Shown here piece after piece: positions 19,062-50,388 of a stretch of DNA of 64,000 bases. Position 1 is the first letter of the stretch, and every line of letters begins with the position of its first letter. Location: NCBI RefSeq assembly GCF_003854935.1, contig NZ_CP033969.1:3569790-3633789 (forward strand). Reading direction: 5' to 3'. The notes below the pieces were generated by a model. It did not search any database, was not told the DNA's origin, and worked only from the letters and a program-made list of their open reading frames with translations. The translations under genes and the position numbers were made by a program. The DNA comes from Cupriavidus pauculus. GTDB taxonomy: Bacteria; Pseudomonadota; Gammaproteobacteria; Burkholderiales; Burkholderiaceae.

Positions 19062-19081
19062 TCGTCGTATGTCTTGCGACG
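19062..19081. promoter_or_regulatory. Candidate operator shared with the aldarate locus
   Basis: TCGTCGTATGTCTTGCGACG, imperfect palindrome (GTCGTA / TGCGAC), about 250 bp upstream of the porin start. It is identical at 17 of 20 positions to 50369-50388 in the gudD/regulator intergenic region, and its right part ATGTCTTGCGACG matches 51289-51301 at 12 of 13 positions. Confidence 0.6.
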
Positions 19082-19099
19082 TTATTTTTCTGTAAGGTA

Positions 19100-19117
19100 C
19101 GATGTCATAGGACATCG
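19100..19117. promoter_or_regulatory. Inverted repeat upstream of porin
   Basis: Perfect 7-bp arms CGATGTC / GACATCG around ATAG. It contains TGTCATA, a sequence also in the sites at 18698-18710 and 51281-51302, and lies 18 bp after the site at 19062-19081. Possible second binding site for the same regulator. Confidence 0.5.
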
Positions 19118-19329
19118 GATCTGTTTGCCTGCCTTTCCCAGGCCAGCCGCGCCGCATGTCCCGGCGCCGTGGAGACATCCTCGCGCGCCACCCATGCCCG
19201 CCGGTGACACATGCCCTGCCGCTTTCCAGAAGGCGGCACCCGAGGTCGACACAACAGACGCAGCACGGCATGCAGCACCGGTCTACCGCAGCAAATAACG
19301 AAACCAGAGCCAGGATGGAGACCAACATC

Positions 19330-20391
19330 ATGAAGCGAGCCCTTGCGCCCTTCGTCACCACGGCCGCGCTGGCGGCCATCGGCGCCGCGGCACCGGCCCA
19401 CGCCCAGTCGAATGTCACGCTGTACGGCATCGTCGACACCACGATCCGCTATACGACCAACGAAAGCGCCGCCGGCAACGGCAAGCTCCAGATGAGCGAC
19501 GGCGTGCTGACCGGCAGCCGCTGGGGCCTGTACGGCGTGGAAGACCTGGGGCGCGGCTACCAGGCGCTGTTCGTGCTCGAATCGGGCTTCTCGCCCGACG
19601 CCGGCCAGAGCCTGCAGGGCAACCGGCTGTTCGGCCGCAAGGCGTACGTCGGGCTGCAGGGCGAATTCGGCACCGTCACGCTGGGCCGCCAGTTCACGGT
19701 GATCCACGAGGTCATCGCCAGCTACGACGCGATGGCGCTGGCCAACCTGTCCATCGTCGGCTTCCAGGGCGGCAACTACACGGGCGGCGTGCGCCAGGAC
19801 AACATGATCAAGTACGCCGGCAAGTTCGGCGGCTTCACCGTCGCGGCCCAGCACGCGTTCGGCGAGCAGCCGGGCAGCGTGGCGCGGTCGTCGTCGACGG
19901 GCGGCAGCCTGACCTACGCCGCAGGCCCGTTCATGGTCGCGGGCGGCTACCAGATCATGAAGGACAGCACGAGCTACTACGGCGTGACCATCCCCACCAG
20001 CGACCAGAAGGTCTGGACGCTGGGCGGCACCTACACGGCCGGCCCCGCGACGATCTACCTCGGCTACACCAACAGCAACGTCGACAACGCCGGCTACAAG
20101 AACCAGGCCGGCTACCTGGGCGGCAAGTACCAGTTCAACCCGGCGTGGTCGCTGATCGCCATCGGCACGTACGACCACCTGAAGCACGGCGGCGATTCGG
20201 GCAACCGATTCACCGGCGCGCTGATGCTGGACTACGCGTTCAGCAAGCGCACCGACGTCTACCTGGAAGCCGACTACACGACGCTGACCGACGCCTGGCG
20301 CACGCTCGGCGCGCAGCCGACCTTCCAGACGCCGTTCTACGGCCACGGCAGCCGCGTGGGCGTGATGGCCGGCCTGCGCCACAAGTTCTGA
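19330..20391 (+). CDS. Outer-membrane porin, divergent from uronate operon
   Basis: A 353-residue trimeric-type porin. The start is set at MKRALAPFVTTAALAA because GGAG at 19317-19320 is spaced correctly for it; an ATG five codons earlier is the alternative. The signal peptide is cleaved after AHA (about residue 25) and the mature protein begins QSNVTLYGIVDTT. The C-terminus is LRHKF with terminal Phe. It faces the hexuronate operon across a shared control region with candidate operators, so it may be the outer-membrane entry for uronates; that is inference. It differs from the porin at 3764 in most loops. Confidence 0.92.
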   Translation: MKRALAPFVTTAALAAIGAAAPAHAQSNVTLYGIVDTTIRYTTNESAAGNGKLQMSDGVLTGSRWGLYGVEDLGRGYQALFVLESGFSPDAGQSLQGNRLFGRKAYVGLQGEFGTVTLGRQFTVIHEVIASYDAMALANLSIVGFQGGNYTGGVRQDNMIKYAGKFGGFTVAAQHAFGEQPGSVARSSSTGGSLTYAAGPFMVAGGYQIMKDSTSYYGVTIPTSDQKVWTLGGTYTAGPATIYLGYTNSNVDNAGYKNQAGYLGGKYQFNPAWSLIAIGTYDHLKHGGDSGNRFTGALMLDYAFSKRTDVYLEADYTTLTDAWRTLGAQPTFQTPFYGHGSRVGVMAGLRHKF

Positions 20392-20418
20392 CGCGGCACC
20401 ACGCGGTCAATCGGAAAC

Positions 20419-20442
20419 AGGGGGCGGCTTCGCCCCCTTTTC
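20419..20442 (+). terminator. Rho-independent terminator of porin
   Basis: 8-bp stem AGGGGGCG / CGCCCCCT with GCTT loop and trailing Ts, 28 bases after the stop. Confidence 0.88.
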
Positions 20443-20572
20443 CATCCAGGCCCGCCGCGCGGCACGTGCGATCCTTACGCCTGTTGCTGCAGCGGACACA
20501 TCGCCGCCAGCCACACCCGCAGCACCCGCCAGCCAGCCCGGCGCCGCCAGATCCATTAAAAAATCTGCGCGA

Positions 20573-20606
20573 GGGGCTTCACAAAACTGGAAGGCGCTGA
20601 TAGTAT
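20573..20606 (+). promoter_or_regulatory. tRNA-Thr promoter with conserved upstream element
   Basis: A -35 box TTCACA at 20578-20583, a 17-bp spacer, and a -10 box TAGTAT at 20601-20606, preceded by an A-tract. The 17-mer GGGGCTTCACAAAACTG at 20573-20589 occurs identically in the tRNA-Arg promoter (34384-34400, minus). The mature tRNA starts about 100 bases downstream of the expected start site. Confidence 0.65.
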
Positions 20607-20710
20607 TGCGGGCTCTATCCGATTCGTTGCAGACGCCGCAAAACACCGCAGCAGCACGGATCGCCGCGGTAAATCGCGACGATGGAACAGGTTTCGCAAG
20701 TCAAGGTTTC

Positions 20711-20786
20711 GCCGGTGTAGCTCAGTTGGTAGAGCAGCGCATTCGTAATGCGAAGGTCGTAGGTTCGACTCCTATCTCCGGCACCA
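20711..20786 (+). tRNA. tRNA-Thr(CGT)
   Basis: 76 nt including encoded CCA. Cloverleaf: acceptor GCCGGTG, D-stem GCTC/GAGC, anticodon loop TTCGTAA with anticodon CGT, T-arm GTAGG-TTCGACT-CCTAT, discriminator A. The body is nearly identical to E. coli tRNA-Thr(CGU). The acceptor stem has a U6-U67 mismatch (GCCGGTG against CTCCGGC). Confidence 0.97.
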
Positions 20787-20801
20787 TTCACTTGAAGTAG
20801 G

Positions 20802-20830
20802 AAGGGCAACCCAGGCGGGTTGCCCTTTTT
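20802..20830 (+). terminator. Terminator after tRNA-Thr
   Basis: 11-bp stem AAGGGCAACCC / GGGTTGCCCTT with AGGC loop and T-tract, 16 bases past the tRNA. Confidence 0.92.
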
Positions 20831-20906
20831 GCTTTGGGGCTTCGCAACTGGGCCGGCTGAAGTACGACGTCGAGCTGCACGCCGACGCCGCCGAGCCCCT
20901 CCCCTC

Positions 20907-21338
20907 TCAAGACATCGCGCCCGGCCGATGGTGCAGTTGCCACGCGTCGGCGGCCACGCGGCGCAGCGGCACGAGGCTGTCGGTGCCGACCATCTGCATC
21001 ACGGCCATCTCGATGCGTTCGATCGTCGCGGTCTTGGGCAGGCAATCCACCACGCCGCGCGACTCCAGCGCGGCCGGCACGCGCAGCCACATGTTGTCGG
21101 ACAGCAGCAGGATGCGCGCGTTGGGCAGCGCCTCGGTCAGGCGCCGCAGCAGGTACCAGTTGTCGTTGACGTCCCCGGCCATGCCGTAGACCACCACGGC
21201 CGGCGCGTGGCTGGGCGCGAGTGCGACGATGTCGGCCGGGTCGATGGCATGGACAGCGCCGATGCCCGGCATGCGTTCCAGCAGGCGCTGCATGCCCAGG
21301 CGGACCAGCGGCTGGTCGTCGATCACGATGGCGGTCAT
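20907..21338 (-). CDS. Stand-alone degenerate response-regulator receiver protein
   Basis: A 143-residue CheY-like protein starting MTAIVIDDQPLVRLGMQRLL, as in NarL/FixJ-type receivers. The acidic pair D7-D8, the switch Ser (about S80) and the Lys of the LPK motif (about K102) are present, but the phospho-acceptor position reads VVVYGMAG instead of VVxLDxxMPG, so the Asp is replaced (Gly at about residue 52). No helix-turn-helix output domain follows; the last 25 residues are an unrelated tail. It probably acts by protein contact independent of phosphorylation. It lies downstream of fapA on the same strand (291-bp gap); a functional link is not shown. Confidence 0.75.
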   Translation of the reverse strand: MTAIVIDDQPLVRLGMQRLLERMPGIGAVHAIDPADIVALAPSHAPAVVVYGMAGDVNDNWYLLRRLTEALPNARILLLSDNMWLRVPAALESRGVVDCLPKTATIERIEMAVMQMVGTDSLVPLRRVAADAWQLHHRPGAMS

Positions 21339-21629
21339 GGTCTATCTCCCCGTATCTTGTATGGATGCGGGGATTCTGCAAGCGTCATGCCAGACGGTTT
21401 GTGGCCGCTGCGAGCAGTCGTGGCGCGAGCCATGGCGAACCCACCAGCGCCCGCGGCCCCTTGGCCCGCCGGGGCTGGCCGGCCTTGGCCGACCGCGCCG
21501 GCGCACTGCCAGCCATGCCGGGCCGACCGCACGCGATGTTACGGCCAACGTAACGTGTCACGGGGCACCGTAACGTGAGACCGTCGGACCGGCAGACCAT
21601 CGAGGCTGGACCGGGCCGGCCCGCCGTTG

Positions 21630-23243
21630 TCAGGTCACCGTGATCCGGTCGTCGATCACGCGCACCTGCCCGCCCGTCTTGTCCTCCATGACCTTGAGCA
21701 CCTTGTGCCCCACCTGCAGCGTCACGCCGCCATGGATGCGGCGGCCCACCGCGATCACGGCATCGTCGGACGGCTTGATCTGCTCGGCCAGCCGCGCGAT
21801 CTCGGCGTCCAGTTCGAACAGGTCCTTGTTGATCTTGAACATCGTGGCGCGCGCCTTCTCGCGGACGTCGCCCTGGGCGCGCTCGGGATGCTTGGCGAAG
21901 AACGCCACCAGCTGCTGCAGCTTGGCCTGGTCGTCCAGCACCTTGCGCCGCCGCGCCTCCAGCTCGGCCTTCTGCTCGTCGGCAAACGGGTTCAGGCCCA
22001 CCTGCACGGCCGTGGCGCTGCCGGCCGGCGCGCCCAGCGTGGCCACGCTCACCGACTGCAGCGCGCGCGTGCGGCCGCCGCTGATGCTGCCCTGCCCGGT
22101 CGGCGTGCCCACCACCACGCGCTCGCCGGCCGAGACGTCGCTCTGCCGGATGCCGCTTTCCACCACCACCTCGGTGGCGGCCTCTACGATGGCGTTCTGG
22201 ATATAGCGCGCATGCACCGCACCCTTGGTGCGGACGCTGGCAATCTCGTTGGGGTCGCCGCCATGCGCGGTCTCCGCCCTGCCGATGATGCCGCCCTTGA
22301 CGATGACGTCCCCGCCGGCCTCCACGTGGGCCGCCTCGATCGTGCCCTGCACCACCACGTCGCCGGTCACGCGGACCGACATGCCGGTGAGGATGTCGCC
22401 CGAGACGCGCAGCGATCCATCGAAATTGACATTGCCCGAATGCAGGTCCACCGCGTCCACGTCGACCACGGGGCTGACGATCACGCCATTGGGCAGCACG
22501 CGCGGCGACCCGGCGATGACGGCCAGCAGCAGGTTGGGATCGTTCGGGTCCGGGGCCACGCCGGTCAGGTCCGGCGCGTAGGGGGTGTCGATGACCGGCT
22601 CGGCGGCGATCGGCTTGCCCAGCAGGTCCATGCCGTCCTTGCCGGGCCGGGCCGGCGTGCGGCGCATCAGCGCGGTGCCGGGATTCACCAGCAGCAGGCT
22701 GCCGAGGTCGCGCAGGTCCACCCGCTCGTCCTCGTTCTCCGCCTGCGCGGGCCGGCGCTGCTGCACGAGGCTGTCGAACCGGGCGGGCTCGCCCTGCACC
22801 GGCGCCACGCCGCGGGCAATCTCGCGGCCCTCGCAGCCGCCCGCTTCCAGCGCCACGCGGATGGCGGCCGAATCGAGCAGCGCCACCACGCCCATCGACG
22901 CCGCGGCGGCCGCGATGTCGGCTTCCTCGATCGGACGGCCGCCCTCGGGCGGCATCAGCGTCAGCAGCAGTTGCAGCTTGTCGCCGGTCATTTCCAGTTC
23001 GAAGGCACCGTCCAGCACATTGCCGATCACCGCGTCGATCTCGCGATCGGTGAGCTGGCACTGGGTCAGGAAGCCGGTCACGGCGCCCTGGTCCAGCCGG
23101 GCGCCTAGCCAGCCGTGCTCGGCCAGCGACGCCTCCAGCGCCGTCCGGTCCGGCGGCAGCCGCCCCGTTTCCGGCGTAAAGCAAGCCCTTACCTGATCTC
23201 CCGGCTGGTTGAGTTCCAGCCGTAATCCCACGTCCGCGTTCAT
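21630..23243 (-). CDS. FapA / DUF342 family protein
   Basis: A 537-residue protein with the DUF342 (flagellar assembly A) architecture. The N-terminal alpha/beta region contains GKDGMDLLGKPI at about residues 200-211. A central right-handed beta-helix of polar repeats follows (VNFDGSLRVSGDILTGMSVRVTGDVVVQGTIEAAHVEAGGDV and the next turns). The C-terminal coiled coil spans about residues 420-500 and ends in a short beta domain. The family is widespread, with proposed roles in cell-surface polarity or motility-related assembly in some bacteria. No flagellar genes are nearby. Confidence 0.88.
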   Translation of the reverse strand: MNADVGLRLELNQPGDQVRACFTPETGRLPPDRTALEASLAEHGWLGARLDQGAVTGFLTQCQLTDREIDAVIGNVLDGAFELEMTGDKLQLLLTLMPPEGGRPIEEADIAAAAASMGVVALLDSAAIRVALEAGGCEGREIARGVAPVQGEPARFDSLVQQRRPAQAENEDERVDLRDLGSLLLVNPGTALMRRTPARPGKDGMDLLGKPIAAEPVIDTPYAPDLTGVAPDPNDPNLLLAVIAGSPRVLPNGVIVSPVVDVDAVDLHSGNVNFDGSLRVSGDILTGMSVRVTGDVVVQGTIEAAHVEAGGDVIVKGGIIGRAETAHGGDPNEIASVRTKGAVHARYIQNAIVEAATEVVVESGIRQSDVSAGERVVVGTPTGQGSISGGRTRALQSVSVATLGAPAGSATAVQVGLNPFADEQKAELEARRRKVLDDQAKLQQLVAFFAKHPERAQGDVREKARATMFKINKDLFELDAEIARLAEQIKPSDDAVIAVGRRIHGGVTLQVGHKVLKVMEDKTGGQVRVIDDRITVT

Positions 23244-23470
23244 GGCTCCCCGCTTTCTGGTTGCAGCGTGGTGCCCGCCGGCCGGGGTTCATGCCCCGCG
23301 CGTCCTTCCGCCAGGACGTCCGTACTTGCGCCAACCCTGCTTGTCGTATCCAGTGGTCAACGGCAGAAATGCGAGTGAGCTTTAGCCCACAAAAGTAGGG
23401 GACCGGCGTTTTCGGTAAACTGACGCCCTTTCCGAAGCGCCCGGGATCCCAGAATCCCCAAAATCCCCAG

Positions 23471-24301
23471 ATGTCCAGCCCATACGAAGTCCGTCCCGGC
23501 CAGTCCGTCGAACTGCTCAAGGAACTCCATATCCTGACGCGCGACGGCAAGATGAACCAGGACAGCCGCCGCAAGCTCAAGCAGGTCTACCACCTGTTCC
23601 AGTTCATCGAGCCGCTGCTGCGCGAGGTGAAGGACGCGAAGGGGTCCGTGGCGCTGGTGGACCATGGCGCCGGCAAGTCCTACCTGGGCTTCATCCTCTA
23701 CGACCTGTTCTTCAAGGACCTGCACGACGATTCGCACATCTTCGGCATCGAGACCCGCGAGGAACTGGTGGCCAGCTCCCAGGCGCTGGCCAGCCGGCTG
23801 GGCTTTCCGGGGATGTCGTTCCTGAACCTGTCGGTGGCGGATTCGATCACCTCGCCGGCGCTGCCCGCCACCGTGGACGTGGTCACCGCGCTGCATGCCT
23901 GCAATACGGCCACCGACGACGCCATCCGCTTCGCGCTGGCCAAGCACGCCCAGCACATCGTGCTGGTGCCGTGCTGCCAGGCCGAGGTGGCCAGCGTGCT
24001 GCGCAAGCACAAGGGCCGGCTGCTGGCCGGCAATCCGATGACGGAAATCTGGCGCCACCCGCTGCATACGCGCGAGTTCGGCAGCCAGCTGACCAACGTG
24101 CTGCGCTGCCTGCAGCTCGAAGCGCATGGCTACCAGGTCAGCGTGACCGAGCTGGTCGGCTGGGAACATTCGATGAAGAACGAGCTGATCATCGCGCAGT
24201 ACAAGGACCTGCCGCGCCGGCGTCCGGCCGAGCGCCTGAAGCAGGTGCTGGAATCGGTCGGCATCGAGGAACTGGGCGAGCGCTTCTTCACGCCCGCCTG
24301 A
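23471..24301 (+). CDS. SAM-dependent methyltransferase (Methyltransf_32-like)
   Basis: A 276-residue protein starting MSSPYEVRPGQSVELLKELH. The class I SAM-binding motif is VDHGAGKSYLGFILYDLF (about residues 64-81), followed by the acidic motif II GIETREELV and a characteristic ALHACNTATDDAIRFAL and VPCCQAEV pair. The LHAC/PCC combination is typical of the Methyltransf_32 group, whose members modify RNA or small molecules. Substrate cannot be told. It is divergent from fapA and convergent with the DUF1415 gene (33-bp gap). Confidence 0.82.
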   Translation: MSSPYEVRPGQSVELLKELHILTRDGKMNQDSRRKLKQVYHLFQFIEPLLREVKDAKGSVALVDHGAGKSYLGFILYDLFFKDLHDDSHIFGIETREELVASSQALASRLGFPGMSFLNLSVADSITSPALPATVDVVTALHACNTATDDAIRFALAKHAQHIVLVPCCQAEVASVLRKHKGRLLAGNPMTEIWRHPLHTREFGSQLTNVLRCLQLEAHGYQVSVTELVGWEHSMKNELIIAQYKDLPRRRPAERLKQVLESVGIEELGERFFTPA

Positions 24302-24334
24302 CCCCGCGCCGGCCGCCGCACCGGGCTGGGGCGG

Positions 24335-24916
24335 CTACAGGTCGCTCTTGCCCGCCATCCACCTGAGCCAGCCGGCGTGGCCAAGCTGGCGCAGCGTTTC
24401 CATGTTGCGCTCGTAGATGTCCTCGGCCTCGGGAAAGGCTTCGGCCGCCCGCGCGATGCTGTCCTCGCGCAGCAGGTGCAGGATCGGGTACGGCGCGCGG
24501 TTCGTGTAGTTCTCGATGTCGTCGGGCCCGGTGCCGTCGAACTGGTACTGCGGATGGAAGCTGGCAATCTGCAGCGTACCTTCCAGCTTCAGGCTGCCGA
24601 GCAGCCGGTCCGCGAAATACAGGAAGTCGTTGTAGGCCAGGAAATCGGCCAGGCCATGCGGCACGATGAGCAGCGTGGTATCCACCTGCGCCGGATCGGC
24701 CTCGGCCAGCAGGCGCAGTTCGCGCTCCAGGTCGTCGAACACGTCCGCGTCGTCGGATGCCTGGCTGACCACGTACCGCACCTGGTCCTTCACGTACACG
24801 CTCTTGGCGAACGGGCACAGGTTCAGGCCGATCACTGCACGCGCCAGCCAGTGCCGCACGGCCGCGATGACCTCGCCGTCTTCGGGCCGCTGGCCGCCCT
24901 GCCCGGTCGCGCTCAT
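24335..24916 (-). CDS. DUF1415 family protein
   Basis: A 193-residue cytosolic protein matching DUF1415: AVRHWLARAVIGLNLCPFAKSVY near residue 20-42, VDTTLLIVPHGLADFLAYNDFL near 95, FHPQYQFDGTGPDDIENYTNRAPYPILHLLRE near 120-150. Function unknown. The start overlaps the stop of the FAD oxidoreductase gene by 4 bases (ATGA), so it is translated from the same transcript. The NLCPFAK and FHPQYQF motifs suggest a metal or redox role, but that is speculation. Confidence 0.88.
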   Translation of the reverse strand: MSATGQGGQRPEDGEVIAAVRHWLARAVIGLNLCPFAKSVYVKDQVRYVVSQASDDADVFDDLERELRLLAEADPAQVDTTLLIVPHGLADFLAYNDFLYFADRLLGSLKLEGTLQIASFHPQYQFDGTGPDDIENYTNRAPYPILHLLREDSIARAAEAFPEAEDIYERNMETLRQLGHAGWLRWMAGKSDL

Positions 24917-26535
24917 TGGCCGTTGGCGATCTGCAGCGCGACGGCTTCCGCCACCTCGATGCCGTCGATCGCCGCCGAATAGATGCCGCCCGCGTAGCCG
25001 GCGCCCTCGCCGGCCGGGTACAGGCCGCGCACGTTGATGCTCTGGTAGTCGTCGCGATTGCGCTCGATGCGCAGCGGCGACGACGTGCGCGTTTCCACGC
25101 CCGTCAGCACCGCGTCGTGCATCGCAAACCCGGCGATCTTGCGGTCGATCTGGGGCAGTGCCTCGCGGATCGCGTCGATCACGTAGTCGGGCAGCGACGT
25201 GCTCAGGTCAGTCGGCGTCACGCCGGGCTTGTAAGACGGCTCCACGCTGCCCAGCGATGTCGACGGCCGCCCCGCCAGGAAATCGCCAACCAGCTGGCCC
25301 GGCGCGCGATAGTCGCCGCCACCCAGCACGAACGCGCGCTCTTCCCACTTGCGCTGGAACGCGATGCCCGCCAGCGGGCCGCCCGGGTAGTCCTGCTCGG
25401 GCGTGATGCCCACCACGATGCCCGCGTTGGCGTTGCGCTCGGCGCGGTAGTACTGGCTCATGCCGTTGGTCACCAGCCGCCCCGGCTCGGACGCGGCCGC
25501 CACCACCGTGCCGCCCGGACACATGCAGAAGCTGTAGACCGCCCGGCCGTTGCTGGCGTGGTGCACCACCTTGTAGTCGGCCGCGCCCAGCAGCTTGTTG
25601 CCGGCAAACTTGCCAAAGCGGCTGCGGTTGATCAGGCCCTGCGGATGCTCGATCCGGAACCCCAGCGAGAACGGCTTGGCTTCCATGAACACGCCGCGCC
25701 CGTGCAGCATCTCGAACGTGTCGCGCGCGCTGTGGCCCACGGCCAGGATCACGTGGTCGCACGGCAGGTAGTCGCCGGTGGACAGCTTCAGGCCGCGCAC
25801 CTGGCCGCCGTCGATGTCGATATCGTCCACGCGGGTCTCGAAGCGGATCTCGGCCCCCAGCGCCAGCATCTCGGCGCGCATCTTCTCGACCATGCTCACG
25901 AGCCGGAACGTGCCGATGTGCGGCCGCGCCTTGAACAGGATGTCCTCGGGCGCGCCCGCGCGCACGAACTCGTCCAGCACCTTGCGCCCGTAGTGCTTCG
26001 GGTCCTTGATCTGGCTGTACAGCTTGCCGTCCGAGAACGTGCCCGCGCCGCCTTCGCCAAACTGCACGTTCGACTCCGGATTCAGCACGCTCTTGCGCCA
26101 GAGCCCGAACGTGTCCTTGGTACGCTCGCGCACTTCCTTGCCGCGTTCCAGGATGATCGGGCGGAAGCCCATCTGCGCCAGCAGCAGGCCGGCCAGCAGC
26201 CCGCACGGCCCCAGGCCGATTACCACGGGGCGGGTCTTCGGGCCGCCCTCGGGGGCGCGCGCCACGAAGCGGTACGTCATGTCCGGCGTCACGCTCCAGT
26301 TCGGCTTGCGCTCCATGCGCTGGCGCGCGGCGGCCTCGTCGCGGACTTCGATGTCGATGATGTAGGTGAGCTTGATGTCGTCGCGCTTGCGGGCGTCGTG
26401 CGCGCGGCGGAAGACCTTGAATCCGACGAGGCCGTCGCCCTTGACCCCGATCTGGGCCAGGTGGCTGCGCACGGCAGCCTCTAGATCGCCCTCGGTATGG
26501 TCGAGCGGCAGTTTGACTTCACTGAGACGTAGCAT
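24913..26535 (-). CDS. FAD-dependent oxidoreductase (COG2509-type, function unknown)
   Basis: A 540-residue protein with an N-terminal 90-residue ferredoxin-like domain (LRLSEVKLPLDHTEGDLEAAV) and then a flavin-binding Rossmann fold with VIGLGPCGLLAGLLLAQMG (about residues 106-124), ERGKEVRERT, and QFGEGGAGTFSDGKL (about 156-170). The C-terminal part has NVRGLYPAGEGAGYAGGIYSAAIDGI. This is the uncharacterised COG2509 family of large FAD-dependent dehydrogenases common in bacteria. The gene overlaps DUF2917 by 17 bp upstream and DUF1415 by 4 bp downstream, giving a compact three-gene set. Confidence 0.9.
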   Translation of the reverse strand: MLRLSEVKLPLDHTEGDLEAAVRSHLAQIGVKGDGLVGFKVFRRAHDARKRDDIKLTYIIDIEVRDEAAARQRMERKPNWSVTPDMTYRFVARAPEGGPKTRPVVIGLGPCGLLAGLLLAQMGFRPIILERGKEVRERTKDTFGLWRKSVLNPESNVQFGEGGAGTFSDGKLYSQIKDPKHYGRKVLDEFVRAGAPEDILFKARPHIGTFRLVSMVEKMRAEMLALGAEIRFETRVDDIDIDGGQVRGLKLSTGDYLPCDHVILAVGHSARDTFEMLHGRGVFMEAKPFSLGFRIEHPQGLINRSRFGKFAGNKLLGAADYKVVHHASNGRAVYSFCMCPGGTVVAAASEPGRLVTNGMSQYYRAERNANAGIVVGITPEQDYPGGPLAGIAFQRKWEERAFVLGGGDYRAPGQLVGDFLAGRPSTSLGSVEPSYKPGVTPTDLSTSLPDYVIDAIREALPQIDRKIAGFAMHDAVLTGVETRTSSPLRIERNRDDYQSINVRGLYPAGEGAGYAGGIYSAAIDGIEVAEAVALQIANGQ

Positions 26536-26911: not shown

Positions 26912-27000
26912 GGCGGCACTCCTTGGGCGATGGAAAATCGTGCCTCCAGCGTATCGGCCGGCCTGTTTCGCCAACAGACACAAGGGCTCGCAGCCGCAAC

Positions 27001-27063: not shown

Positions 27064-27091
27064 GATCTCGCCCGCGCGCGAAGATTGCGCC

Positions 27092-42728: not shown

Positions 42729-42747
42729 CGCGCAGGAGGGATTGACG

Positions 42748-43362
42748 ATGCAACGCCTGGTCCTGGCCTCCAACAACGCCGGCAAGGTGCGCGAATTCGG
42801 CGCGCTGCTGTCCCCGCTCGGCTTCGACGTCGTGCCGCAGGGCGAGCTGGGCATCCCCGAGGCCGAGGAGCCGTTTGCCACCTTCGTCGAGAACGCGCTG
42901 GCCAAGGCCCGCCACGCCAGCCGGCTCGCCGGCATGCCCGCGCTGGCCGACGACTCGGGCATCTGCGTCGACGCCCTGGACGGCGCACCGGGCGTCTATT
43001 CGGCCCGGTATGCGCAGATGGTTGGCAAGCCCAAGACCGACGCCGCCAACAACGCGCACCTGATCTCGCAACTGGCCGGCAAGCTGAACCGCCACGCGCA
43101 CTACTACTGCGTGCTGGTGCTGGTGCGCCATGCCGACGACCCGCGTCCGATCATCGCCGAGGGCACGTGGGCCGGCGAGGTCGTGGATGCCCCGCGCGGC
43201 ACGGGCGGCTTCGGCTACGACCCCCATTTCCTGCTGCCCGAGATCGGCAAGACGGCGGCGGAGCTGACGGCCGAGGAAAAGAACGGCATCAGCCATCGCG
43301 CGCTGGCGCTGCAGGGCCTGGTGGCCCGGCTGCAGGCCGCGAGTCTCAAGGTCGGCGCGTAG
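42748..43362 (+). CDS. rdgB: XTP/dITP diphosphatase (RdgB/HAM1)
   Basis: A 204-residue house-cleaning pyrophosphatase that removes dITP, ITP and XTP. Motifs LASNNAGKVREF (about 5-16), ADDSGICVDALDGAPGVYSARYA (about 68-90) and GTGGFGYDPHFLLPE (about 149-163). The start is the ATG at 42748 because AGGAGG at 42734-42739 is 8 bases away; a TTG at 42742 would be too close. It lies between rph and hemW, a common order. Confidence 0.97.
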   Translation: MQRLVLASNNAGKVREFGALLSPLGFDVVPQGELGIPEAEEPFATFVENALAKARHASRLAGMPALADDSGICVDALDGAPGVYSARYAQMVGKPKTDAANNAHLISQLAGKLNRHAHYYCVLVLVRHADDPRPIIAEGTWAGEVVDAPRGTGGFGYDPHFLLPEIGKTAAELTAEEKNGISHRALALQGLVARLQAASLKVGA

Positions 43363-43378
43363 CGCCCAAGGTTTCTGC

Positions 43379-44629
43379 ATGATCCCCATCATTCCCGCCG
43401 GCAGCGGCAAGCCGGCCGAGCCGGCATCGACCGGCAACCCGCAGCTCTGGCTCAAGCCGGGCCAGATCGCCCTGCCCGGTTCGCCGCCGCTGTCGCTCTA
43501 CGTCCATATCCCGTGGTGCGTGCGCAAGTGCCCGTATTGCGATTTCAACTCGCACGCGGCGCCCGGCGGGCAGGACAGCCACGACATCCCCGAAGACCGC
43601 TACCTGGACGCGCTGCGCGCGGACCTGGAACAGTCGCTGCCGCTGGTCTGGGGCCGGCCAGTACACACGGTGTTCCTGGGCGGCGGCACGCCGAGCCTGC
43701 TGTCGGCGGCCGGCATGGACCGGCTGCTGTCGGATATCCGCGCGCTGCTGCCGCTGGACGCCGACGCCGAGATCACGATGGAAGCCAACCCCGGCACCTT
43801 CGAGGCTGAACGGTTTGCCAGCTACCGCGCCAGCGGCATCAACCGGCTGTCGATCGGCATCCAGAGCTTCAACGACGCCCACCTGCAGGCGCTGGGCCGC
43901 ATCCACGGCGAGAAGGAAGCGCGCGCGGCGATCGACATCGCGCTGCGGCACTTCGACAACGTCAACCTGGACCTGATGTACGCGCTGCCGGGCCAGACCA
44001 TCGACGAGTGCGTGCGCGACCTGGAGTCGGCGCTGTCGTACGGCACCGCGCACCTGTCGCTTTACCACCTGACGCTCGAACCGAACACGCTGTTCGCCAA
44101 ATTCCCGCCGGCGCTGCCCGACGAGGACCTGGCCTACGAGATGCAGGACATCATCGAGGCCCGCACGGCCCAGGCCGGCTACCGCCACTATGAGACGTCG
44201 GCCTACGCCCGGCCGCATCGCGAGGCGCGGCACAACCTTAATTACTGGCGTTTCGGCGATTACCTGGGTATCGGTGCCGGGGCGCACGGCAAGCTGTCGT
44301 TCCCGAACCGCATCCTGCGCCAGATGCGCCACAAGCATCCGGCCACGTACATGGATCAGGCCATGGCCGGCAACGCCGTGCAGGAGGCGCGCGAGGTTGG
44401 CGCCGATGAACTGCCGTTCGAGTTCATGCTCAACGCGCTGCGGCTGACCGATGGCGTGCCGGCGTCGAGCTTCCACGACTACACCGGCCTGCCGCTGCAT
44501 GCCATCGGCAAGATGCTGGCCGCCGCCGAGCAGAAAGGGCTGCTGGAAGCCGACCCGACGACCATCAAGCCGACCGAACTGGGCCGGCGCTTCCTCAACG
44601 ACCTGCAGGAGATGTTCCTGAAGGATTGA
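43379..44629 (+). CDS. hemW: HemW, radical-SAM heme chaperone
   Basis: A 416-residue protein; radical-SAM cluster motif C47-x3-C51-x2-C54 in WCVRKCPYCDFN, followed by FLGGGTPSLL and the GIQSFN motif. The C-terminal HemW domain is present. It lacks the extra N-terminal Cys-containing features of oxygen-independent coproporphyrinogen oxidase HemN, so annotation as HemW, which inserts heme into respiratory enzymes, is preferred. It starts 16 bases after rdgB and ends at a terminator. Confidence 0.94.
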   Translation: MIPIIPAGSGKPAEPASTGNPQLWLKPGQIALPGSPPLSLYVHIPWCVRKCPYCDFNSHAAPGGQDSHDIPEDRYLDALRADLEQSLPLVWGRPVHTVFLGGGTPSLLSAAGMDRLLSDIRALLPLDADAEITMEANPGTFEAERFASYRASGINRLSIGIQSFNDAHLQALGRIHGEKEARAAIDIALRHFDNVNLDLMYALPGQTIDECVRDLESALSYGTAHLSLYHLTLEPNTLFAKFPPALPDEDLAYEMQDIIEARTAQAGYRHYETSAYARPHREARHNLNYWRFGDYLGIGAGAHGKLSFPNRILRQMRHKHPATYMDQAMAGNAVQEAREVGADELPFEFMLNALRLTDGVPASSFHDYTGLPLHAIGKMLAAAEQKGLLEADPTTIKPTELGRRFLNDLQEMFLKD

Positions 44630-44665
44630 CGACGGGCCGCCGCGACAAAGCAAAAAGCAAAAAGC

Positions 44666-44704
44666 AAAACGCCACACGCGAATCACGTGTGGCGTTTTTG
44701 CTTT
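44666..44704. terminator. Bidirectional terminator (hemW / glycine-zipper gene)
   Basis: 13-bp stem AAAACGCCACACG / CGTGTGGCGTTTT, loop CGAATCA, T-tract to the right; the left side is A-rich so it also works for the convergent minus-strand gene. Confidence 0.9.
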
Positions 44705-44730
44705 CCCGGTCGTCAGTCGACGGGGGTTGG

Positions 44731-45261
44731 TCAGTACGGCGTCGCCATGTCGTTGGCCACGCGGGCGCGGTCACCCACGCGCAGGTTGCCGATATTGCTC
44801 TGCGTCACGGTGGCCACGCGGCCATCGTCGAGCCGCACGTTGACGCGGTACACGGTCGACGTATTGCTGCCGGTCCGCTTCTCGATCTGGTTGCCTGCCA
44901 CGGCACCGCCCACGGCGCCGACGATCGTCGCGGCCGTCTGGCCACGCCCGCCGCCAATCTGGTGGCCCAGCAGGCCGCCAGCCGCACCGCCGATCACGGT
45001 GCCCAGGATGCCCGAGCTGCCCTGCGTGGTCTGGATCGGCTCGATCGACTCGACGCGGCCCGTGAACACCGAGCCGGCCGGTGCCTGGTAGGTCGAGTTA
45101 TTGGGTTGCTGATAGCCGGTCGGCGGCGGCGCGGTGTTGTAGTTGCCGTAACCGCCGTAGCCCGGCTGCGCGCAGCCGGCCAGTCCGGCCGCCAGTGCCA
45201 GTGCGCCGAGCCCGCCAAGGGCCAGCCACGGCCTTGCTTGATCCTTGCGTTGTTCCTGCAT
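44731..45261 (-). CDS. Glycine-zipper 2TM lipoprotein (SlyB/PcoB-like)
   Basis: A 176-residue lipoprotein: signal peptide then LAGC with lipidated Cys at about residue 30, a Tyr/Gly/Asn-rich linker (QPGYGGYGNYNTAPPPTGYQQ), SVFTGRVESIEPIQTTQ, and a double glycine-zipper helix pair (GILGTVIGGAAGGLLGHQIGGGRGQTAATIVGAVGGAVAGNQIE) typical of SlyB. It is an outer-membrane protein with a role in envelope integrity by family. Convergent with hemW. Confidence 0.9.
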   Translation of the reverse strand: MQEQRKDQARPWLALGGLGALALAAGLAGCAQPGYGGYGNYNTAPPPTGYQQPNNSTYQAPAGSVFTGRVESIEPIQTTQGSSGILGTVIGGAAGGLLGHQIGGGRGQTAATIVGAVGGAVAGNQIEKRTGSNTSTVYRVNVRLDDGRVATVTQSNIGNLRVGDRARVANDMATPY

Positions 45262-45466
45262 CGAATTCTCCTCAATTGCCTGTTTGAAAGCGCCAGCGTG
45301 CTGCGCGATGGCGGCACGCCGTCCCTTTTAGGAACCTTACCGCGCCCACATGGTTCCGCGCTGTCCGACAAACACCGACAAATGCGTCCGACGAGTCAGC
45401 ATCCGCAGCCGGCCGGACCCGTCCCACTGCATCAGGAACATCACACTGTGGCCTGCCGCGTCCCTG

Positions 45467-45472
45467 TATAAT
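45467..45472 (+). promoter_or_regulatory. -10 box of tRNA-Ser promoter
   Basis: Consensus TATAAT 53 bases before the tRNA. The -35 region at the right distance is poor (CACTGT), and the GGGGCTTCAC element of the Thr and Arg tRNA promoters is absent. Confidence 0.55.
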
Positions 45473-45524
45473 GCGCGGCCGGGCAGCATGGATGACAACG
45501 CCAGCCTGCCCGGCACATCCCGAA

Positions 45525-45614
45525 GGAAGCGTGGCCGAGTGGTTTAAGGCAGCAGTCTTGAAAACTGCCGATGGGGTGACCCATCCGTGAGTTCGAATCT
45601 CACCGCTTCCGCCA
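45525..45614 (+). tRNA. tRNA-Ser(TGA)
   Basis: 90-nt class II tRNA with encoded CCA. Acceptor GGAAGCG / CGCTTCC, long variable arm CGATGGGGTGACCCATCCG, anticodon loop CTTGAAA with anticodon TGA, T-arm GAGTTCGAATCTC. Confidence 0.97.
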
Positions 45615-45617
45615 GAC

Positions 45618-45672
45618 AAAAAAATGCCGCAACACCGCTCCGGAACCGGAGGCCGTGTTGCGGCATTTTTGC
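45618..45672. terminator. Long bidirectional terminator (tRNA-Ser / lipoprotein operon)
   Basis: 15-bp outer stem AAAATGCCGCAACAC / GTGTTGCGGCATTTT with an inner CTCCGG-AA-CCGGAG stem; As to the left and Ts to the right, so it serves both convergent units. Confidence 0.93.
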
Positions 45673-45708
45673 TATCCGGCCGCCGGAACGCAGCGGCCAG
45701 GCCAGGGG

Positions 45709-46365
45709 TCAGTCCGCCTGGTACTTCGGCGAACGCGGCCCGTACAGGATGCCGTTCGGCGTGCCGGCCGACAGCAGGCGGTAGCTCGCCGTGCCAGCCA
45801 CCGGGTAGGCGGCATCGGTCATGTGGTTCACGGCCTGGTTGATGGCCGCGGTAATCAGCATGCCGATCAGGCCGCCGCCGCTGTTGCCGCTGTCGTTGGC
45901 CGCGACGGCGGTGCCGCTCCACAGTTCGTCGCCGGTCTTCAGGTCCACCAGCTTGGCGTTCGCGGCCACGCGCGTCACGCTGCTGAGCACCTGGTAACGC
46001 GAGCCGTAGTCGGTCACGGTCACGTACAGGGCGGCGTCGGCGCCAAAGATCTCGCGCAGCTTCTTGACCGGCACGGCGTGGATGTCGCCGGGCACGGTCA
46101 GGCCGTTCTGGCGGAAGGTCTCGTCGACCAGCGCCACCGGCATCACGTAGTAGCCCGATTCCGCCAACGGGAAGGTGGCCTGCGACAGCATCGCGTAGGT
46201 CGCCTTGATGTCCGGCGACTCGTTCAGCGGCGGCAGCACCACGATCGAACGCGGCTTGGCGGCCTTGAACGCGGCGTAGTCCACCTGCTTCTGCGGCACG
46301 GCGCAGCCGGCGAACAGCATCACGGCGCCCAGGGTGGCGACATAGGTCAGGATACGGCGGATCAT
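45709..46365 (-). CDS. DUF799 / GNA1162-family lipoprotein
   Basis: A 218-residue lipoprotein (LFAGC, Cys about residue 21). It has RSIVVLPPLNESPDIKATY near residue 38, LREIFGADAALYVTVTDYGSRYQVL near 108 and the Gly-rich GNSGGGLIGMLITAAINQAVNHMTD near 165, matching GNA1162/DUF799, a surface-exposed meningococcal antigen family. It is the third gene of a leftward operon and its start overlaps the DUF4810 stop by 4 bases. Function of the family is not established; its structure resembles TolB/LpoA-type N-terminal domains. Confidence 0.9.
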   Translation of the reverse strand: MIRRILTYVATLGAVMLFAGCAVPQKQVDYAAFKAAKPRSIVVLPPLNESPDIKATYAMLSQATFPLAESGYYVMPVALVDETFRQNGLTVPGDIHAVPVKKLREIFGADAALYVTVTDYGSRYQVLSSVTRVAANAKLVDLKTGDELWSGTAVAANDSGNSGGGLIGMLITAAINQAVNHMTDAAYPVAGTASYRLLSAGTPNGILYGPRSPKYQAD

Positions 46366-46808
46366 TTGGCGCTCCCGGCGGTCGATTCGGTCTTGGCGGC
46401 CGCCGTGGTGTCGGCCTTGGCCTGCGGCGTGGCGCCGGCGGTTACGTCCGGGCGCGCGTCGGTCTTGACGTTACGCATCAGGAAGTCCATGTACGGCGTG
46501 GACTCCGGGAACAGCGTCTTCTCGGTCTGGAATTCCTTGACCATCTGGTCGCCCTTGCCCACGTTCAGGTAGAGCATGCCCAGTTGGGCGTGGTAGCCCG
46601 GCGGCACACTGCCGCCCTTGGCCTTGATCTTCTCCAGCCCGCTTTCCAGCGCGGTGATCTGCGCCTCCTTGGACTCGCCCTTGAAGTACTCGTAGACCTG
46701 GGCCTGGTAGCCCTCCCACTGGTACATCGGCTGCGGACCCGCACAGCCGGCCAGCAGGCCGGCCGCCGACAGAAACGCCGCGCTGCGCAGCGTAACCCAT
46801 TGCGTCAT
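46362..46808 (-). CDS. DUF4810 lipoprotein
   Basis: A 148-residue lipoprotein (LLAGC, Cys about residue 22) with PMYQWEGYQAQVYEYFKGE and the TPR-like PPGYHAQLGMLYLNVGKGDQMVKEFQTEKTLFPESTPYMDFLM, the signature of DUF4810. The last 30 residues are Ala/Thr/Lys-rich, probably disordered. It lies between the CsgG-like gene (39-bp gap) and the DUF799 gene (4-bp overlap); these three families are regularly found together. Function unknown. Confidence 0.9.
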   Translation of the reverse strand: MTQWVTLRSAAFLSAAGLLAGCAGPQPMYQWEGYQAQVYEYFKGESKEAQITALESGLEKIKAKGGSVPPGYHAQLGMLYLNVGKGDQMVKEFQTEKTLFPESTPYMDFLMRNVKTDARPDVTAGATPQAKADTTAAAKTESTAGSAK

Positions 46809-46847
46809 GATTTTTCTCGCTTTTTTATGATGGAAGATGGAGCCGGA

Positions 46848-47522
46848 TTACTGCGCCGGCTTCCAGGCACCGCTTTCGATCGCGCTGACCAGGTTGTTCA
46901 CGGCCTCGCGCATGGCCAGGTCCATCACCTTGCCGTTCAGCGTCGAGTCGTAGCTGGCCGTGCCGCCAAAGCCGATGACCTCGCGGTTCGACAGCTTGTA
47001 CTCGCCGGCGCCCTGCGTGGCGTAGACCACTTCGGAGGTGGTGATGTTGACCACGTTCAGGTTGACCTTGGCGTACGCCACCTGCTCGCGGCCACGGCCC
47101 AGGATGCCGAAGAGCTGCACGTCGCCCACTTCCTTGCGGCCGAACTCGGTGATGTCGCCGGTGACCACGAAGTCCGCGCCCTTGAGCTTCTGGGTCTGGT
47201 TCTTGATGGCGGCTTCGCGCTTGATCTCGTCGAGATTCTCGCGTTCCAGCACGTTGAAGCGGTTGGTCTGCTGCAGGTGCGTCACCAGGCTGGTCTTGGC
47301 CTGGCCGCTCAGGCGGTCGATGCCGTCCGAGAACACGCCGCGCATGTAGTTGGAACGGTTGTCGAACTTGCCCACCGCGATCGGCGTGCGCACGCCGTGG
47401 TACGGCCGGCTGGCGCTTTCCACCTTCTGCACCGGCAGCGCGGTCGACGATTCGGTCGCGCAGCCGGCCAGACCCATGGCAGCAACGGCGCCGATCAGGC
47501 AGCAGCTCTTGAGACTCTTCAA
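46848..47522 (-). CDS. CsgG/HfaB-family lipoprotein
   Basis: A 224-residue lipoprotein (GLAGC, Cys about residue 21). The CsgG-fold region contains KFDNRSNYMRGVFSDG, SLVTHLQQTNRFNVLERENLDEIKREA, ADFVVTGDITEFGRKEVGD and AYAKVNLNVVNITTSEVVYATQGAGEY. It lacks any neighbouring curli subunit gene (CsgA/B/E/F), so it is unlikely to be a curli pore as such. Shorter than E. coli CsgG (277 residues). First gene of the leftward three-lipoprotein operon. Confidence 0.88.
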   Translation of the reverse strand: MKSLKSCCLIGAVAAMGLAGCATESSTALPVQKVESASRPYHGVRTPIAVGKFDNRSNYMRGVFSDGIDRLSGQAKTSLVTHLQQTNRFNVLERENLDEIKREAAIKNQTQKLKGADFVVTGDITEFGRKEVGDVQLFGILGRGREQVAYAKVNLNVVNITTSEVVYATQGAGEYKLSNREVIGFGGTASYDSTLNGKVMDLAMREAVNNLVSAIESGAWKPAQ

Positions 47523-47687
47523 TTCATTCTCCAGACAAAAGACAAAACGGGCACATTTATCACGCCGTGACCCAGCTCGGATTGATCCAGTTCAACCCTC
47601 TACGGTATCGGCGGCCGCAAGTCTGTCTGAAGACCTAATTGGGGGGGCCCCACGCTGGTGGGGTCGATGGGAAACGCCGGGGGGGAG

Positions 47688-47720
47688 AAAAAAAGGCCGG
47701 CCCGGCCGAGGCGGCCGGGC
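47688..47720 (-). terminator. Terminator after Bug-protein gene
   Basis: On the minus strand GCCCGGCCG / CGGCCGGGC (9 bp) with a 3-base loop, then GGCC and seven Ts. 22 bases past the stop. Confidence 0.85.
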
Positions 47721-47742
47721 GGAGATTGATGCAGTCCGAAAC

Positions 47743-48804
47743 TTACTCGGCCGTGATCTTGCCCTGCTCGATCACGGTCTTCCAGCGCTTCAGCTCCTGG
47801 TTTTCGAACTCGGCGAACTGCTCGGGCGTGTTGGCGACCACTTCGAAGCCCTGCTCGTTGAGCTTCTTCTGCATGCCGGCGTCCTTGAGCGCGCCGACAA
47901 TGGCGCCATGCAAGCGGGTCTTCACATCGGCCGGCAGGCCCTTGGGCGCGGCCACGCCCTGCCACGAGTAGACCTCGACGTCCTTGACGCCGCCCTCGGC
48001 CATGGTGGGCACGTTGGGCAGCACGGCCGAGCGCTTGTCAGACGTCACGGCCAGCGCCTTGAGCTTGCCCGTGCGGATGTGCTGCAGCACCGCGTTGACG
48101 TTCTGGAACGACACGTCGACCTGCCCGGCCAGCAGGTCCGAGATGGCCGGCGCGCCGCCCTTGTACGGCACGTGCAGGCCCTCGGTGCCGCTCTTCTGCC
48201 AGAACAGCGCGGCCGTCAGGTGGTCCGACGACCCCGCGCCCGAGCTGGCGAACGTGACCTTGCCCGGATTCTTCTTCATGTAGGCCACCAGTTCCGGCAG
48301 CGACTTGACCGGGAAGTTCGGGTTGGCCACCAGCACGTTCGGCGCCCGCACCGCCACGGTCAGCAGGTCGAAGTCCTTGGCCGGGTCGTACTGCAGGTTC
48401 TTCTGCAGGAACGGGTTGACCGCGAACACGCCGATCGATGCCACCAGCATCGTGTAGCCGTCGGCCGGCGCGCGCTTGACGTAGGTGGCGCCGATGGCCC
48501 CGGTGGCGCCCGGCTTGTTGTCGATCACGAACGGCTGGCCGAGTTTCTCGTTGAGCGGCGCGGCCAGGTAGCGGGCGATGGTGTCGGTCGAGCCGCCGGC
48601 CGGGAACGGCACGACGACCGAGACCGGCTTCTGCGGCCACGCCGCGGTGGACGCCATGGCGGCGCCGCAGACGGTCACGCCGGCGGCCAGTGCCAGGGCC
48701 ACGCCGGCCAGGCGGCGCAGCAGCGCGTTGTGGCGGGACGCGCGCGGGGCGGCGGGGGCGAAGGTGCGGGCCGCCTGCGTGGCGGCCGTGGAAGTACGGA
48801 TCAT
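47743..48804 (-). CDS. Bug-family periplasmic binding protein (TctC-type)
   Basis: A 353-residue protein. After an unusually long N-terminal lead (about 50 residues, Ala/Arg-rich, signal peptide near LAGVALALAAGVTVCGAAMA) come the Bug signatures WPQKPVSVVVPFPAGGSTDTIARYLA, DNKPGATGAIGATYVKRAPADGYTML and FASSGAGSSDHLT. The family binds small carboxylates, usually for TctAB transporters, though many are orphans; no tctA/tctB is near. It lies 43 bases downstream of gudD on the same strand, so a D-glucarate-type ligand is inferred. Confidence 0.92.
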   Translation of the reverse strand: MIRTSTAATQAARTFAPAAPRASRHNALLRRLAGVALALAAGVTVCGAAMASTAAWPQKPVSVVVPFPAGGSTDTIARYLAAPLNEKLGQPFVIDNKPGATGAIGATYVKRAPADGYTMLVASIGVFAVNPFLQKNLQYDPAKDFDLLTVAVRAPNVLVANPNFPVKSLPELVAYMKKNPGKVTFASSGAGSSDHLTAALFWQKSGTEGLHVPYKGGAPAISDLLAGQVDVSFQNVNAVLQHIRTGKLKALAVTSDKRSAVLPNVPTMAEGGVKDVEVYSWQGVAAPKGLPADVKTRLHGAIVGALKDAGMQKKLNEQGFEVVANTPEQFAEFENQELKRWKTVIEQGKITAE

Positions 48805-48847
48805 GGGCTGTCTCCTGCTTGGGTTTTTGAAGCTTTTACGACGGTGC

Positions 48848-50197
48848 TCAGCGCACCATGCACGGCATCTTGTTGTTGAACTTCCAGTTCGGGATCAGGA
48901 ACTGCATGGCGATGGCGTCGTCGCGCGCGCCCAGGCCCTTTTCCTGGTAGAGACGATTGGCCCGCGCCAGCGCGTCCATGTCCAGCTCCACGCCCAGGCC
49001 CGGCGTCTTCGGCACCTGCACCAGCCCGCCCTCGATCTTCAGCGGGTTGCGCGTCAGGTGCTCGCCGTCCTGCCAGATCCAGTGCGTGTCGATGGCCGTG
49101 ACGCGGCCCGGCGCGGCGGCGGCCACGTGCGTGAACATCGCCAGCGAGATATCGAAATGGTTGTTCGAATGCGAGCCCCACGTCAGGCCCCATTCCGAGC
49201 ACATCTGCGCCACCCGCACCGACCCCTGCATGGTCCAGAAGTGCGGGTCGGCCAGCGGGATGTCGACCGATTGCAGGCGCACCGCGTGGCCCATCTGCCG
49301 CCAGTCGGTGGCGACCATGTTGGTGGCCGTCGGCAGGCCGGTGGCGGTGCGGAATTCGGCCATGATCTCGCGGCCCGAGTAGCCGTCCTCCGCGCCGCAG
49401 GGGTCCTCGGCGTAGGCCAGGATGCCGTGCTTGTCGCGGCACAGGCGGATCGCCTCCTTCAGCAGCCAGCCGCCGTTGGGGTCCAGGGTGACGCGCGCCT
49501 TCGGAAAACGCTCGTGCAGCGCGATGATCGCTTCCATCTCCTCGTCGCCGCGCAGCACGCCGCCCTTGAGCTTGAAGTCGTTGAAGCCGTAGCGCTCATA
49601 GGCCGCCTCGGCCAGCCGCACCACGCCCTGGGCATCCATCGCCACTTCATTGCGGATGCGGAACCATTCGTTGTCCGCGCCGGGCTCGGTGCGGTAGTCG
49701 AGCGTGGTCTTGTTGCGGTCGCCGACGTAGAACAGGTAGCCCAGCATTTCCACGGCATCGCGCTGCTGGCCTTCGCCCAGCAGCGCCGCCACGGGCACCT
49801 GCAGGTGCTGGCCCAGCAGGTCCAGCAGCGCCGCTTCCAGCGCGGTCACGGCGTGGATGGTGATACGCAGGTCAAATGTCTGCAGGCCGCGCCCGCCGGC
49901 GTCGCGGCTGGCAAACTGCGCGCGCACGCGGTTCAGGATCGACAGGTACTGGCCGATGCCCTGCCCCACCACCAGCGGGCGGGCGTCTTCCAGCGTCTGG
50001 CGGATGCCCTCGCCGCCGGGCACCTCGCCCACGCCGGTGTTGCCGGCGCTGTCCTTGAGGATGACGATGTTGCGGGTGAAGTACGGGCCATGTGCGCCCG
50101 ACAGGTTCATCAGCATGCTGTCGTGGCCCGCCACGGGCACGACGGTCAGTTCGGTCACGACGGGCGTCGCGCCCACGGGTTGGGTGTTGGCGTTCAT
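48848..50197 (-). CDS. gudD: D-glucarate dehydratase
   Basis: A 449-residue enolase-superfamily enzyme, start [28 protein letters not shown]. Motifs agree with characterised Gud[33 protein letters not shown] (the K-x-K base), [10 protein letters not shown] and AYAEDPCG (metal ligands), [12 protein letters not shown], and [21 protein letters not shown] (catalytic His). It dehydrates D-glucarate (and L-idarate) to 5-keto-4-deoxy-D-glucarate. The regulator gene is divergent, and the Bug protein is downstream. The next pathway enzyme KdgD is not seen in the window. Confidence 0.96.
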
Positions 50198-50285
50198 GTG
50201 GATGGTCTCCGAGTCCTGTTGACGAGGCCGCCGGGATCGCGCTCCCCATGTCGTGGAAATGCGCCCTGCTGTCTTCTGCTCATAC

Positions 50286-50299
50286 GCTAATATATTAGC
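50286..50299. promoter_or_regulatory. AT-rich palindrome upstream of gudD
   Basis: GCTAATATATTAGC, perfect 14-bp palindrome about 90 bp upstream of the gudD start. It may include the gudD -10 region or be an operator. The neighbouring CGTATGA (minus strand, 50279-50285) matches part of the candidate regulator motif. Confidence 0.45.
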
Positions 50300-50368
50300 T
50301 GGCCGATGCGAACGCGCTGTCGCGCTGCCACAACGATCCCACGGCTGCAAGATCCTGTGCGTTATCGG

Positions 50369-50388
50369 TCGTCGTATGACTTATGACG
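50369..50388. promoter_or_regulatory. Candidate operator in gudD/regulator intergenic region
   Basis: TCGTCGTATGACTTATGACG, imperfect inverted repeat GTCGTA-N5-TATGAC. It is 17/20 identical to 19062-19081 and its first 12 bases match the minus-strand site at 51281-51302 at 11 of 12. It lies 82-101 bp upstream of the regulator gene and 172-191 bp upstream of gudD. Confidence 0.65.

Follow-up and report, generated by a model that had tools for sequence, protein, structure and literature searches.

We analysed a 64,000-nucleotide stretch of the Cupriavidus pauculus genome (the window; contig NZ_CP033969.1, positions 3,569,790 to 3,633,789), in which genes for the oxidative breakdown of hexuronates and aldarates lie at two loci (Table 1). 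On one side, udh is followed by an SMP-30 lactonase gene, the P, Q and M genes of a tripartite ATP-independent periplasmic (TRAP) transporter and an aldose epimerase gene, in what we predict to be a single operon divergent from a porin gene. On the other side, gudD and the gene of a TctC-type receptor are divergent from a GntR/FCD regulator gene, behind which stands an aldehyde dehydrogenase (ALDH) gene. An initial annotation had noticed a 20-mer shared by the porin control region (19062-19081) and the space between gudD and the regulator gene (50369-50388), 31 kb apart, together with a related site before the ALDH gene and a half site before udh, and had proposed that the regulator controls all four promoters. 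Each of the four sites lies where it had been placed, as does the FCD gene, with the letters correct, and the identity of 17/20 between the two 20-mers was reproduced. The genome consists of four contigs (6.18 Mb); the window lies on C2 (3.6 Mb), and kdgD, garD and talrD lie on C3 (1.9 Mb), which is probably a second replicon.

Table 1 Features of the uronate and aldarate loci, in window coordinates
Feature	Position	Strand	Basis or remark
Aldose 1-epimerase-like gene	12817-13851	-	PF01263
TRAP DctM	13936-15216	-	PF06808
TRAP DctQ	15210-15782	-	PF04290
TRAP receptor DctP	15811-16803	-	PF03480, NF037995
SMP-30/gluconolactonase-like lactonase, UxuL-type candidate	16895-17782	-	PF08450, 279.7 bits; start adjoins udh stop
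udh, uronate dehydrogenase (short-chain dehydrogenase/reductase family)	17788-18627	-	PF01370; named from context
Predicted udh operator GTTGTATGACAAC	18698-18710	-	Best match of the window, 21.2 bits; 12/13 udh loci; conserved block in 12 aligned loci
udh promoter TTGACC-17-TAGATT	18719-18747	-	12 aligned loci: TTGACC invariant, TAGATT within conserved block
P1, headline site of the initial annotation	19061-19081		Upstream of probable porin -35 box; weak, doubtful site of the regulator
P2, candidate porin operator, missed earlier	19101-19116		Inverted repeat GATGTC-ATAG-GACATC at probable -10/start region; 14.2 bits
Porin (Porin_4)	19330-20391	+	PF13609
TctC-type solute receptor adjoining gudD	47743-48804	-	PF03401
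gudD, glucarate dehydratase	48848-50197	-	TIGR03247, 859 bits, cut-off 828.7 (scanned with seven extra upstream codons)
Predicted regulator-promoter operator GTCGTCGTATGAC and further half-site TTATGAC	50368-50388	+	18.9 bits; 30/30 loci
GntR/FCD regulator, GguR-type	50470-51219	+	PF00392 (GntR) and PF07729 (FCD) above cut-off
Predicted ALDH operator	51278-51302	+	GTCATATGATGTC at 51281-51293 and overlapping half-site TTACGAC; 20.1 bits
ALDH	51414-52991	+	PF00171

A near-palindrome of 13 bp, about GTYRT-AYG-AYGAC, emerged from the control regions of relatives. The input consisted of Cupriavidus control regions of the regulator, ALDH, udh and kdgD genes and of the side divergent from kdgD, plus regulator promoters of other genera; the search began from nine hand-typed seeds, and regions were scored with the matrix built from those same regions. 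Rows used were 30 of the 36 genus matches to the regulator, 30 of 38 for kdgD, 13 of 25 for udh-like genes (at least 80% identity), 29 of 37 for talrD-like genes (at least 71% identity) and the best 80 of 88 regulator relatives, 41 of which supplied the non-Cupriavidus regions. A strong site was present in the control region of the regulator gene in 30/30 loci, before kdgD in 30/30 and before udh in 12/13, and the side divergent from kdgD carried a site of at least 16.7 bits in 28/30. Downstream of the regulator gene, a site of at least 18.6 bits occurred in 30/30 loci, a figure that counts the site and not the gene, as kdgD or another gene replaces the ALDH gene there in some species; one such site, in a genome in which kdgD directly follows the regulator gene (G001), was counted on both the ALDH and the kdgD side.

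Within the window, the udh site ranked first (18698, 21.2 bits), followed by those at 51281 (20.1 bits), 50368 (18.9 bits) and 19104 (14.2 bits) and a match of 12.9 bits on the opposite strand of the porin site; in 365 background chunks, each of 335 bp and taken at a distance from the sites, scores reached 9.2 bits at the 95th percentile and 12.4 at most. The supposed half site before udh was correctly located and is in fact a full 13-bp near-palindrome, and the related site before the ALDH gene was borne out, whereas the 20-mer at 19062 scored 8.8 bits, fell inside the background and fails as the key site of the regulon. Since relatives differ at the 3' end of the 20-mer at 19062 and the conserved unit is the 13-bp near-palindrome, we do not regard the 20-mer as the true motif.

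The udh promoter and operator are the main conserved stretches of their region in 12 aligned loci, with the operator just downstream of the -10 box TAGATT. The operator at 50368-50388 spans the -35 box and spacer of a promoter whose TATAAT box lies at 50392-50397 (boxes read by eye) and probably also serves the divergent gudD, for which no separate promoter was identified. Placement on or just after promoters would suit a repressor. Between gudD and the regulator gene there is also a perfect 12-bp palindrome, CTAATATATTAG, at 50287-50298, which is shared by loci L010-L013, differs by a single change in L014 and L015, and was not seen in the other upstream regions compared; it is possibly a gudD promoter element or another operator, and the DNA hairpin around it is unremarkable (z 0.49). 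On the ALDH side, the operator is partly tandem-repeated, as ATGTCATATGATGTCATATGATGTC and similar, after the regulator gene in L018 (genome G012) and L020 (genome G027), which suggests that the site may have grown through short duplication.

Additional sites were found on C3. kdgD (C3:1672165-1673070; TIGR03249, 447 bits, cut-off 373.95), present in 38/40 genomes of the genus, has a motif site, as does the major facilitator superfamily (MFS) gene divergent from it, and garD lies 15 bp behind the MFS gene (TIGR03248, 958 bits, cut-off 730.85). The site at talrD (NF047820, 697 bits, cut-off 500) occupies C3:1864424-1864436, about 52 bp ahead of the start used (1864489); an ATG within the site could be an earlier start, and a LacI-family gene is divergent from talrD. 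No NCBIfam model reached its cut-off for udh, which at 80% identity or more is present in 13/40 genomes of the genus, nor did any NCBIfam model shown for the ALDH at 51414-52991, which by its position is a probable 2-ketoglutarate semialdehyde dehydrogenase. UxuL belongs to the SMP-30/gluconolactonase family, and PF08450 together with position makes the gene at 16895-17782 a candidate UxuL-type lactonase; the gene at 12817-13851 is a candidate uronate mutarotase. For every step from uronate to 2-ketoglutarate there would be a candidate gene close to a motif site or downstream of one, with the ALDH and the lactonase in putative roles.

The regulator has an ortholog in 36/36 genomes of the genus, and its closest named relatives, among the best 80 of 88, are 95-96% identical (C. 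pauculus, a Cupriavidus sp. and a record labelled Ralstonia sp.). Its FCD domain aligns with solved FCD-type repressors, and Asp and His positions coincide by eye in the alignments; in FCD repressors these positions have a role in metal binding. ExuR, UxuR, NanR and LldR were rejected as names because the NCBIfam scores are too low (94.7 bits against a cut-off of 442 for UxuR; 91 against 396 for ExuR). ExuR and UxuR of enterobacteria are likewise GntR-family regulators of hexuronate genes, but they serve the isomerase pathway, and the regulator here is far below their cut-offs.

Linkage in relatives supports a connection between the two loci of the window. Among the best 80 of 88 loci, udh is divergent from and adjoins a relative of the regulator gene in nine, from Polaromonas, Rhodoferax and Rubrivivax; gudD lies downstream in seven of these and a TRAP receptor gene in seven. 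The split in this genome looks like a contiguous cluster that has become dispersed. Seven Cupriavidus relatives have udh and the regulator gene on one contig, about 33-54 kb apart; the distance is 1.7 Mb in genome G028, and in G005 the two genes are on separate contigs. In Caballeronia/Burkholderia loci (among L172-L206), the regulator relatives are about 58-62% identical and mostly have GTCATCGTACAAG as promoter site, and no gudD, kdgD, udh or ALDH gene was found within flanks of up to 6 kb of the regulator gene.

Three further matrices served as cross-checks, built from 11 distinct non-Cupriavidus regulator-promoter sites (Caballeronia/Burkholderia promoters included), from 21 distinct Cupriavidus sites and from six regulator-promoter sites. 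With the non-Cupriavidus matrix, the best match of the window was the udh site (20.2 bits), followed by the ALDH site (16.2 bits). A GguR binding site of Polaromonas JS666 is printed in the portion of PMC8376909 used here, where it served as negative-control DNA and was credited to Bouvier et al. 2019 (J Bacteriol); with the Cupriavidus-only matrix it scored 18.9 bits, about 2.5e-7 per position. One GntR/FCD regulator linking the udh and gudD loci, the core of the earlier proposal, is thus well supported by the shared conserved motif, the linkage in relatives and the printed GguR site.

GguR is an FCD-type GntR regulator. Taken together, these data suggest, with a probability of about 0.87, that the protein encoded at 50470-51219 is a GguR-type GntR/FCD local repressor of oxidative hexuronate and aldarate breakdown at four loci. 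A dimer of the regulator would bind the 13-bp near-palindrome on or just after a promoter and block transcription, and it would be released when a pathway compound (aldarate, lactone or keto-deoxy acid) binds the FCD domain. Its targets in the window would be its own gene, probably gudD-tctC, the adjacent ALDH gene and the predicted udh-lactonase-TRAP-epimerase operon, with the porin controlled through a weaker site; on C3 they would be kdgD, the divergent MFS-garD pair and talrD. Of the four promoters initially proposed, those with the regulator, ALDH and udh sites are supported and the site at 19062 is weak, and the regulon appears larger than was thought, extending to kdgD, MFS-garD and talrD. 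The analysis corrects which sites merit testing and gives a testable wiring diagram for the use of uronic acids from plants in a Cupriavidus-type genome; some of its parts lie on another contig and would be missed if just one window were read.

GguR-type control itself has already been described, and the regulon here is largely an instance of a known family. According to the portion of PMC5507952 used here, the regulon of Halomonas GguR, also of the GntR family, comprises the gal/glucarate operon and TctABC; strain HL-93 has another operon, in which udh, gli and gci stand together with a TRAP transporter. Similar to that regulon, the genome analysed here has a GntR-family regulator and gal/glucarate genes with a TctABC-type transporter apart from udh and TRAP, and its predicted operator matches the JS666 GguR site. 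Unlike the Halomonas regulon as given there, the one here would comprise four loci on two contigs, its udh region including porin and SMP-30 lactonase genes, with sites near both garD and talrD, and the udh-operon genes scanned include no gli or gci. The UxuL and UxuF lactonases of the oxidative uronate pathway, described by Bouvier et al. 2019, are known to us through parts of PMC6353982 and PMC9007349; as in the pathway outlined in PMC6353982, udh here adjoins a lactonase-like gene, and aldarate dehydratases, KdgD and an aldehyde dehydrogenase are present in the genome. No description of this Cupriavidus regulon appeared in the portions of the literature searched, Bouvier et al. 2019, a possible source, being outside that scope.

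Several results weigh against this assignment. The initial annotation had named occurrence at many unrelated promoters as evidence against a regulon; the 20-mer proved unique, and the 13-bp core pattern was not enriched genome-wide (23 exact matches versus 28 for the control), nor was a narrower form of the core with 2 mismatches (605 matches versus 1,701). Because such counts fail to separate sites from background, the assignment rests on position, pathway and conservation. Six of the 23 exact matches fall at the udh, regulator, ALDH, kdgD, MFS and talrD promoters; we dropped the other 17 as targets, as they had no clear link to the pathway, the genes around them being presumably as we named them from their sequences, where no family search was made. 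With the non-Cupriavidus matrix, the regulator's own site ranked just fourth in the window (13.6 bits), and the printed JS666 GguR site scored just 13.3 bits with the regulator-promoter matrix. Two of the 30 kdgD-divergent regions (below 3 bits) and one udh copy (80% identity) are without a site. The regulator is 59% identical to a relative (L168) from Polaromonas sp. OV174, another Polaromonas than JS666, in a comparison that includes no characterised GguR protein.

Paralogous regulators may also share the motif, since a strong match adjoins another GntR-family regulator: a near-identical 13-mer, GTTGTACGACGAC, lies at C3:1227214 between an L-arabinonate dehydratase gene and that regulator gene, and the genome carries six paralogs of the regulator (30-39% identity). 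Both observations could fit two regulators, with the FCD protein acting only at gudD and the ALDH gene, perhaps also at kdgD, and with udh and the porin under a paralogous FCD protein or another regulator of similar motif. We consider this unlikely, as udh adjoins relatives of this regulator in the nine loci described above, and the udh site is the top match of the window for a matrix made from non-Cupriavidus regulator promoters alone. A different question is whether the 20-bp similarity is a coincidence of two unrelated promoters. The window holds 2 matches to the consensus of the pair (up to 3 mismatches) versus a mean of 0.02 in 100 shuffles, and the whole genome 9 (2 exact and 7 with 3 mismatches) versus 15 for the reversed control; a pair of at least 17/20 arose in 6/200 mononucleotide shuffles when three control regions were freely compared. 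Because the consensus was derived from the pair itself and such pairs arise in shuffles, the 17/20 pair on its own is marginal and only suggestive. Even so, coincidence could apply at most to the stretch at 19062, the remaining sites forming a conserved family, and as an account of the system it is highly improbable. We therefore retain a single GguR-type repressor as the preferred reading.

Membership of the porin in the regulon is less certain. P1, at background level with the main matrix, scored 13.7 bits with the regulator-promoter matrix, fifth in the window, above P2 (10.9 bits) and below the ALDH and udh sites. Across the 10 genomes that have this porin promoter, the similarity of P1 to the genome's own regulator site is 17 of 20 here and 16, 15, 15, 15, 15, 15, 14, 13 and 13 of 20 in the nine others, a spread that could also point to coincidence at 19062, and the terminal GCGACG is kept in 2/10. 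Both 6-bp arms of P2 are kept in 10/10 loci. It is possible, though we find it the less convincing view, that P1 and P2 are both sites of another protein, the regulon then including the udh side alone: P1 is at background, the spacing of P2 is even (4-bp centre) whereas the core is 5-3-5, and P2 scored just 11.3 bits with the non-Cupriavidus matrix in addition to its low score with the regulator-promoter matrix. However, a pattern derived from P2, with 2 mismatches allowed, gave 10 matches at 8 places versus 1 in the control, and these places include P2 itself, the ALDH site and the talrD site, which are of the same subtype, the other five lying within long open reading frames. Moreover, the porin promoter occurs in 10/40 genomes, and udh adjoins it every time. 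On balance, the porin probably belongs to the regulon, with P2 rather than 19062 as its site.

The control region of talrD varies among the 29 rows. In 10/29 rows, including genomes G018 and G061, talrD is preceded by a LacI-type palindrome, TGACAACGTTGTCA; 8/29 rows read TGACAACGATGTCATACGATGTC there, with a GguR-type site overlapping, and 11/29 have neither. G061 combines the palindrome with a separate site of 21.2 bits at talrD. A talrD site of at least 18.9 bits is present in 9/10 genomes with the porin-udh locus, the exception being G018 (two talrD rows, no such site), and in 0/18 rows from other genomes (best 13.1 bits); three of these other genomes carry udh elsewhere. We tentatively suggest that, where Cupriavidus genomes hold the porin-udh locus, their GguR regulon may have drawn in the galactarate dehydratase gene talrD by operator conversion, although other histories seem somewhat more probable. 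The genomes that carry this locus appear to be close relatives (in seven of them the regulator is 93-96% identical), so a small number of events may account for the pattern, and it does not amount to strong proof of coupling. If the suggestion is true, gain of the pathway's first step was matched by rewiring of a later step. As a small and tractable example, the talrD promoter may show the operator of one regulator turned into that of another.

Elsewhere on the contig that holds the window, strong GguR-type sites of 20.2 and 20.9 bits lie about 169 bp apart before a TctC-type receptor gene (C2:3479789 and C2:3479958; span 3479789-3479970), which may be a target of this or another FCD regulator.

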